DNA of 64,000 nucleotides from Trematomus loennbergii (Eukaryota; Chordata; Actinopteri; Perciformes; Nototheniidae). A model generated the notes under the pieces. That model was given only the letters and a program-made list of their open reading frames with translations, did no database searches and was not told the DNA's origin. This document shows positions 15,801 through 18,800 of the stretch, one piece after another. The stretch lies in NCBI GenBank assembly GCA_012861695.1, contig JAAOOA010000280.1:310001-374000 (forward strand), given 5' to 3'. Within the stretch, counting starts at the first letter, position 1, and every line of letters begins with the position of its first letter. The position numbers and the translations under genes were made by a program.

Positions 15801-18800
15801 GCCTGCTCTGAGGCTGGTGAGTCACGCACACACATTCATCTGCTACATTTAAATCTAAATGTGGTCATCAGATCATGAATTGGCATCAATGGAGGATAAT
15901 CAGACGTACACTATACAGATGATTTAAATGCATAAAGCACTTACATGTCATTTTCCCATGTGTTCTCCTGCAGGACGCCGGCTGTGACGAGGTGCAGAAC
16001 AGTAAGTACATCACAGCTTAAATTATATATTTAATACTAATTTTAGAGTCTGCTGAGCACCATCCTCTAATCAAATATTTTAGAGTCTAATACCACTTAG
16101 TTTTTAATAAACACAACCTATGTACAGGTCCTGGGCAGAAGCTACTTCCCATGAATTTGGACTGAAAACTGTTCACAGGAAAGCAGCTGTGAATTTGGAC
16201 AGAAATACCGTGTTCAGATAAAACCTTTGCAAATATTTTGGCAGTCAAACGTTGGCTGACCCTGAAGGATTTCAGTCCTGATTTATTTAGCCAGCTTTAT
16301 TTAATGATAAAATCGGTAAATGTAGTTTAATCTCCCAGAATACAGAACAAACACTACGCATTTCCTGTGACTACTTCACAATACAAGTCATTCAGATGCT
16401 TTTAATGTGAAGCTTTAGCAGGACATACTTTACAGTACTTTAATCCATTGTTTTATGTAGGTAGTAGCACTGCAAGTTCATAAATATTGCCATACTTTCA
16501 TCATGTAAAACCTTTGAGATTGACACTTTAATTAAAAAAAATGTATTTAAAAAAACTACAGCAGCTGAAAACGTTGTTTCTGCAGACCGTTGATACAGCC
16601 ACAGTTTGCAACAGCACGTTCATTGGTTGATTGATTGATGAGTTGATGGGTTAATTGGTGGGTTTGTTGGTTCATTGATTGGTTGGTTGGTTAATTGATC
16701 TTTTGATGGGTTTTCTTACCAGCTGTGCTTTAGCCTGGTTGCTGCGGTGCTGAGCGGACTTTAACTCGGCTGCTCTTCTCCTTCTGTTTCAGGAGGATAA
16801 GGCGGCAAGAGCCCCTTAAAATAAAAGGAGAAGGGAGTCACACTGACAGCAGCTCACTTTAACTGAAGGACAGACAGACGTTTATAAAACACTGACTCCA
16901 TAAATCAGGCCTGTAGCGTCTCCACAAAGCTGCAGCAATTTCAATTTCTGCAAGGCTTTGATGCAGAATTGACTTGATATTACTGAACAAAAGATCAGGA
17001 CAATGATTGCATGAAATGTACTTTAATTAGATTTCTTCAGATTTCTCTCTGATGTTGCCAATGATGAACATGCAGTGTTCATCTGCATGCTGCAGTAGAG
17101 CTACCGCTGGACAGACTTTATACCGGGAACTCAATAAGCTTTTAGAAACTGAAATGTTGACTTCTTATAGTGCAGGACAACTTCGGTTTTTTTTAAGCTT
17201 TGGCAGCTAATTCAATGCTAACTTTGAAAATTGTTAAAGCATTTTGCTCTTTGTTTATGAAAATAAAGAAATGTAATAGAATGTAACGCTTTGTTGAGTG
17301 TTTTTTTGTTCATTGGTACAACAGAACATACAGGGAGTGTTAAATTATCAATCAACCAATCAACCAATCAACCAATCAACCAATCAACCAATCAACCAAT
17401 GAACCCTTCTACCAAACATCTGTTGTCCCATCATGTCCAGACATGTACGGTTGTACCTGTAGGCGTGTTTTATAAACGGTGGATGTATTGCAGATGCATT
17501 AGATGTCATCCTGTGTGTTTGTATTTTGAATTCCTCAAGTTATTTTATCAAAATGAACCACACACACATGTTTCTCCTGCCGTGTGGCGTACAGTCAGTA
17601 TCGCGCAGAAGGAGAGCGATCTGGTGCTGGAGGACGTGGAAGAGGACGTGGAAGAGGACGTGGAAGAGGCCGTGGAAGAGGACGTGGAAGAGGCCGTGGA
17701 AGAGGACGTGGAAGAGGCCGTGGAAGAGGCCGTGGAACAGGACGTGGAAGAGGACGTGGAAGAGGAAAAGGACAAGAACATTGACGACAAGCAGAATGAG
17801 AAGAAGGTGAGAGAGGAGTCACAGAACAATAACAACCGCTTATCTTGATGCAATCATCTTTGATATCTAAGTTATTATTTCATATCCATGCCTTACTCTA
17901 CACCAGGGATTATTACTTAGTTCTGGTTTTGCACATCATCTTTAATCAGCAGAAAGCAAGCTGTGGATTTCATTTCAATCATTCGTGGTCTAGAAGGATC
18001 CTTCTAAAATAAACACAGAATGCCTTGTAAAAAAACTACTCGAATTGACCTGAAATTCTTCTTGATCAACATGGCTTGCTAACAGGCTAATGGTAGCATT
18101 TTCTACATCCAATAGTAGACATGCATGTTAAATTGTTAACTAGAGTCAACTTGGAAGTGTACCATCGTAGTACACAAGTAGTTAATGTGTTCCCTAATAA
18201 GACGGGTACTATGTCCTTTTGTAGGGTCTGCACCATGGCTCTTTAGAGGGTACGATGCTAGACCAGAGCAGGTACAATAGAGCTTCAGTTACAAAGGTAC
18301 AAGGAAGGTAAAAAACAGTGTAGGTACCTTGGTTTATCACAGAATACTGTGGGAAGGGGTACTAAGGGAGATCCAGAGTAGTTCAAATGTCCCTCTAAAG
18401 CAGGGGTGGGGATCCTTTTTCCTCTCAAGGGCCATTTCAATTTTTACAACATCCTCCGAGGGCCGTACGAATTATTGACCTCTGCTTAAAAAAACTAAAA
18501 TCACAGCCCATTCATTTGGCCTTTCTTTCATGCTGTGCAAAGAACCAGCAACCTCTGAATCCAGATATCTCACCATGACTCGCGTATGCACGTGCACAGT
18601 GTGGCATGACCACCAACACAGAAAGATATGGACACAAGATGTGTGCAAATGTATTTAGTTTCCTATCCATGTGGACATGATTTAAGTGGGGGGCGGACCT
18701 AACCTCCTCTAGGGGGTCCGGGGGCATGTTCCCCCGGGAAGATTTGTTTTAAATATTGAAGTTAAAAGCATCAATCTGGTGCACTTTGAGAGCAACATTA

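Follow-up and report, generated by a model that had tools for sequence, protein, structure and literature searches.

A candidate GARP2-type terminal exon in the cngb1 gene of a notothenioid fish

The window, a stretch of 64,000 nucleotides of Trematomus loennbergii DNA, carries a notothenioid cngb1 gene on the plus strand, for which 36 coding exons were modelled; they begin with the ATG at 9795 and end with a stop near 39449 (Table 1). When 400 channel residues encoded between 29499 and 38508 were compared with the sequences in the PDB, the top three matches were 7rh9_B, 9upf_B and 7o4h_D (E 2e-193 or lower), and CNGB3 came next (E 5e-165). The gene is therefore CNGB1, and a short product of it would come from the same locus as GARP2. 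The N-terminal part was 89% identical to protein P0001 of Dissostichus eleginoides, 91% identical to P0002 of Champsocephalus gunnari and 87% identical to P0003 of Notothenia coriiceps, the latter two values covering 85% of the N-terminal part. A sequence search of the PDB with a repeat segment gave no matches, the GARP2-like product described below matched no Pfam family, and no Rfam family matched 5000-40600 at gathering scores.

Table 1. Features of the cngb1 locus in the window.
Feature	Position	Strand	Basis and remarks
First coding exon, proline-rich repeat	9794..9896	+	ATG at 9795; N-terminal match to P0001-P0003
Proline-rich repeat exon	10990..11092	+	Gene model
Proline-rich repeat exon	12616..12715	+	Gene model
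Proline-rich repeat exon, frame off by one base relative to the preceding exon in the assembly	13572..13666	+	Gene model
Exon with the last proline-rich repeat	15768..15816	+	Gene model
Branch-point exon, DAGCDEVQN plus one base	15974..16001	+	Gene model, alignment to human CNGB1
Imperfect inverted simple repeat, 5' arm	16618..16704	+	3' arm at 17342-17418; the arms enclose the terminal exon and poly(A) site
Candidate GARP2-type terminal exon	16793..17285	+	Acceptor, stop, poly(A) signal; 3' end predicted
AATAAA poly(A) signal	17262..17267	+	Sequence read directly
Glutamate-rich exon that opens the long (channel) path	17595..17806	+	Gene model; open in phase 1 from 16001
Candidate GARP1-like terminal exon	22583..22955	+	Tail ending HPQQP, stop 22840-22842, AATAAA 22930; exon end estimated
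Transmembrane, pore, C-linker and cyclic-nucleotide-binding exons of CNGB1	28045..39449	+	Gene model, PDB comparison

The reading frame of the gene is broken at several places in the assembly. One break, of a single base, lies upstream of the terminal exon between exons 12862-12940 (at its end) and 13572-13666, a junction across which P0001, P0002 and P0003 continue with R. The others were located in exons 26532-26748 (two, by eye), 29049-29098 and 39289-39449, and by eye each break lies in or beside a short one-base run. Given these runs, the canonical splice sites and a channel sequence that matches CNGB1, the breaks are probably assembly indels, and a pseudogene was disfavored. The exon phases also clash between the glutamate-rich exon and exon 19853, reflecting either a missed exon or a further indel. 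Inspection by eye further revealed, on the plus strand at 14780-15750, the 3' portion of a LINE-like element ending in a simple repeat, directly upstream of the 15768 acceptor, and large minisatellite arrays inside the gene (30440-31580) and upstream of it (2580-3830), with units of about 57 and 38 bases.

The donor of the branch-point exon (AACA|gtaagt) can be joined to either the terminal or the glutamate-rich exon. A previous sequence-only reading of this DNA had claimed that phase 1 from 16001 fits both, and both indeed read in that phase. At 16793 the acceptor is CTCTTCTCCTTCTGTTTCAG|GAG, and splicing to it from 16001 gives A|GA GGA TAA, that is Arg-Gly followed by a TAA at 16798-16800, which is the stop two codons into the exon that had been described. 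The AATAAA and the GT/T-rich element of the same reading were likewise located, the latter as a T/GT-rich stretch at 17290-17311. Its 3' UTR was recovered with a changed length, about 485 nt up to the predicted end at 17285 instead of about 460 nt, and its product of about 255 residues was modelled as a protein of 254 residues that includes one unread X at the upstream frame break. As the repeat exons lie upstream of the terminal exon, and exon 17595 and the channel exons downstream, this product would keep the repeats and lack the glutamate-rich and channel parts.

The strength of the acceptor was assessed with a matrix derived from 35 acceptors of the gene itself, exon 19853 being omitted because its frame does not fit. 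In total 1767 intronic AGs were ranked, including 16793 and excluding the acceptors of the model, and the real acceptors were scored leave-one-out. Position 16793 ranked second and outscored 31 of the 35 real acceptors (89%), in line with the strong acceptor claimed earlier, and no AG among the 2257 on the gene's minus strand reached its score. The AG that outscored it, at 37513, has no exon in the gene model. Among the 44 AATAAA hexamers of the gene, the one at 17262 is followed by the richest G/T element (19 of 20 bases, the next reaching 16). G/T-richness is a weak test and was given little weight, as the last AATAAA of the gene, at 40482, has a downstream score of only 14. An equally G/T-rich AATAAA site was found within 600 nt downstream of 39 of the 1767 intronic AGs.

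The fish sequence VQN|ISI...DLVLEDVE aligns with VQT|ISI...DLVLEEVE of human CNGB1 (9upf_B). This alignment is not significant by score (E 2.2 for the whole chain, E 650 for the segment) and rests on order and context, in that VQN|ISI follows the last repeat and precedes the glutamate-rich part in a gene established as CNGB1. According to PMC12783967, mouse GARP2 is made via exon 12a, the source of its last eight residues, and a primer for a mouse GARP2 transgene, printed in PMC4207353, translates as PGMCDVQT, a myc tag and RATAAGGL-stop. The alignment, weak by itself, the primer and exon 12a together indicate a shared exit point from the long transcript in fish and mouse, and they support the placement of exon 16793-17285 right after the repeat region, at the CDVQT|ISI junction where mouse GARP2 leaves CNGB1. 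With mammalian GARP2 (Cngb1 exons 1-12 plus 12a) the fish ending thus has in common the gene, the junction, the retained repeats, the loss of the glutamate-rich and channel parts, a short unique C-terminal tail and a separate 3' UTR. It differs in its tail, which comprises two residues (RG) instead of the eight of mouse (RATAAGGL), and in the repeats, as the window has five W...P repeat exons whereas four repeats are given for the mammalian protein in PMC4646965.

To place the ending among vertebrates, three protein searches were combined, the second and third of which scored the best-sharing candidates only. They yielded 120 distinct proteins, including many longer forms and fragments, and 54 of these, sorted by eye, have a short tail directly after the branch junction. 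The 54 comprise seven teleost proteins filed under cngb1 copy A, two from eels, 20 filed under teleost copy B, two from cartilaginous fish, one from an amphibian-like contig, three from turtles, two from birds, ten from lizards, five from placental mammals and two from monotremes; six of them are doubtful, namely P0081, which may reflect read-through into the intron, P0038, which is incomplete, P0013, whose frame is scrambled upstream of the tail, and P0093, P0102 and P0105. The ends read EE-RGKLV(L/P)VSETNGK in the skate Amblyraja and the sawshark Pristiophorus, EE-RGKGV in the frog-like contig, EE-RGE(E/G)A in the three turtles and EE-RGKGA in the two birds. P0001 of D. eleginoides has the VQN-RG end of the window, so that an error of the window assembly is unlikely to have created this end. 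The short proteins that carry a name come from database entries that do not show what RNA supports them. For ten of the 54 the contigs measure 935-2891 nt (935-1821 nt in nine cases), compared with a span of 7 kb in the window, and these ten are thus probably spliced transcripts; what was observed on joining and polyadenylation is confined to such relatives, with contigs shorter than the unspliced span. The shared junction and the short proteins in both teleost copies, eels, cartilaginous fish and tetrapods support the proposed GARP2-type ending of fish cngb1, and at the protein level they answer the call of the sequence-only reading for a check on conservation.

In a tree of 33 rows, made up of the window plus 32 proteins from the set of 120 with long ones cut at 420 residues, the window pairs with Eleginops (100/100) within a percomorph copy A clade of 11 rows (100/100). 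Copy B forms a clade of 16 rows (100/99), and Notolabrus, Tetraodon and Knipowitschia have rows in both clades, the copy A row of Tetraodon being a long branch. The copy B clade holds 14 of the 20 copy B short proteins, the other six being filed by resemblance. From the seven short proteins filed under copy A, P0005, P0007 and P0012 fall into the copy A clade, P0001, P0013 and P0057 are absent from the tree, and P0032 (Serrasalmus, tail REKDVKTP) falls outside both clades. These placements support a GARP2-type ending in both teleost cngb1 copies.

In copy B and the eels, the tail is more strongly conserved than the stretch that precedes it. Among the 18 proteins with a full eight-residue tail, a set from which P0021, P0035, P0038 and P0055, four copy B proteins whose tails are shorter, are excluded, the last eight residues show a mean identity of 72%, the preceding eight 32% and the eight before those 17%. 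For all 22 copy B and eel proteins, not realigned, the corresponding values are 51%, 23% and 14%. Between the two eels and eight copy B proteins the tail is 62% identical, a value that none of 10000 order shuffles reached. This pattern points to selection on the copy B and eel tail itself. These teleost copy B short proteins, mostly listed as 'uncharacterized' or 'hypothetical', resemble the product of the window in their repeats and in a tail at the same junction; they differ in a strongly conserved octapeptide of the GGKALRAP type, which copy A of the window appears to have lost in the spliced frame.

In its other frames the window exon resembles both this octapeptide and the Lates protein P0013. 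In phase 0 it matches GGKALRAP-stop at six of nine positions, a score not exceeding four for any other of the 1767 intronic AGs, and GGRALRAP-stop at five (next AG four). It was not outstanding against GGRTVRAP, GGRTLRTP, GGRPLRAP or REKDVKTP, with scores of 4, 3, 4 and 3. In phase 2 it reads EPLKIKGEG, identical in nine of nine positions to the Lates protein P0013, compared with five of nine for the next best match in the six frames of the window; the string was picked after P0013 had been inspected. Judged from these matches, the window exon is homologous to the Lates exon and very probably also to the copy B exon, and the Arg-Gly of the window is very probably an eight-residue tail shortened by a small frame change near the exon start. 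The sequence-only reading had noted neither this shortening nor the further terminal exon at 22583 described below. Skipping of exon 15974-16001, which is possible, would yield the end EDKAARAP.

We consider it highly probable that 16793-17285 serves notothenioid cngb1 as an alternative last exon for a GARP2-type transcript and is the counterpart of mammalian exon 12a. The upstream frame break, the tail of only two residues, the higher score of the AG at 37513 and the differing ends of P0002, P0004, P0009, P0010, P0011 and P0014 count against this reading. In rods, donor 16001 would be spliced to 16793 and the transcript cleaved near 17285, resulting in an mRNA that ends after the proline-rich repeats and encodes a soluble product some 254 residues long. 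If the exon is skipped, 16001 would be joined to 17595, giving the glutamate-rich region and the channel. The outcome would be set by competition between the 16793 acceptor plus its poly(A) site and the downstream acceptor, and in the lineage of the window the early stop would trim the eight-residue tail to two. PMC4646965 describes binding of mammalian GARP2 to PDE6 and peripherin-2 and inhibition of the channel. By analogy, the short fish protein probably acts as mammalian GARP2 is thought to, in PDE6 binding, at the disc rim and in restraint of the channel.

Two RNA structures were predicted around the exon. The region of the inverted repeat folds with a z-score of -7.2 (20 shuffles), and its arms could form a long RNA stem. 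A local hairpin at 16775-16833 (-32.3 kcal/mol, z -3.3), matched in stability by one of 200 shuffles, pairs the first bases of the exon with the acceptor and its polypyrimidine tract. Both the inverted repeats and the hairpin could influence the use of the terminal exon.

Three other explanations were weighed against an alternative last exon in use. The exon could be conserved by descent and yet be a decaying leftover in copy A, the working percomorph GARP2 being made from copy B. Such decay would fit the good conservation of the copy B and eel tails and the variation among percomorph copy A tails (RG, RGKGGP, RGTGG, RGKGHEPL and the long tail of Lates); it is at odds with the acceptor of the window, which is among the strongest of the gene, and with P0007 and P0012 of the copy A clade, which lie on contigs of 1139 and 1056 nt and are likely transcripts. 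We regard it as unlikely, with a real if minor chance of being correct. It is distinctly improbable that short GARP forms end mainly inside introns, after 16001 or 13797, and not via the 16793 exon. P0010 (turbot) and P0014 (Perca) do run into the intron after the branch junction (SKY...), as read-through of a 16001-type donor, which in the window itself would give SKYITA-stop, and P0002, P0004 and P0009 stop earlier with TEK, as read-through of a 13797-type donor predicts; ends of these kinds occur in only five of the 120 proteins, as against 54 of the exon type. P0011, a copy A protein of Tetraodon, has yet another end. A chance pairing of a cryptic acceptor and an AATAAA in an intron without a transcript can be dismissed almost entirely, for although large genes contain strong decoy acceptors such as 37513 and AATAAA is common, the acceptor rank, the homologous exon sequence in the other frames and the matching ends of the 54 short-tailed relatives in many species argue against it. 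As an observation in their own right, the 13797-type ends of P0002, P0004 and P0009 and the 16001-type ends of P0010 and P0014 are possible further GARP-like endings.

An origin of this alternative ending in early jawed vertebrates is suggested by the short proteins of sharks, fish, reptiles and birds that match it, and has good support at the sequence level. We think it likely that the last common ancestor of jawed vertebrates already had the GARP2 ending as one exon at a fixed junction, often opening with Arg-Gly-Lys or Gly-Gly-Lys/Arg, that both teleost copies kept it, with the octapeptide conserved in B and eroding in A, and that the exon in the window represents a late member of reduced length. 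GARP2 is well known in mammals, and the fish terminal exon is an added member. A search of titles and the beginnings of abstracts, with most subscription journals outside its reach, found no paper on fish GARP2; the GARP2 papers that it returned concern mammals, and the role of GARP2 is still debated. If the ending is indeed present in sharks, teleosts, turtles and birds, GARP2 would be a basic component of vertebrate rods and not a refinement of mammals, and a natural separation of the channel and soluble forms would be available in fish that have cngb1 in two copies. The conserved octapeptide hints that the tail has a job.

A second candidate terminal exon, at 22583, lies downstream of the glutamate-rich region, an arrangement also present in P0100 of Eleginops. 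It is in frame after exon 21794-21821 and would add a tail of 86 residues; the matrix scores its acceptor as weak, at rank 355 of 1767. The tail was found in ten of the retrieved fish proteins at 31-96% identity, one of which, P0110 of Oreochromis aureus, is listed as isoform X2. Its predicted structure consists of three helices (mean pLDDT 84, pTM 0.38), for which Foldseek returned seven matches, all with E above 4, and thus no close solved fold. Two Pfam matches of the tail below the cut-off, one of them to a viral envelope model, were judged spurious. By position, exon 22583 resembles the end of mammalian GARP1 (exons 1-16a), which likewise uses a further terminal exon past the glutamate-rich part. 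The two differ in their tails, the fish tail being 86 residues long, conserved and predicted to be helical, whereas PMC12783967 gives 16 unique residues for mouse.
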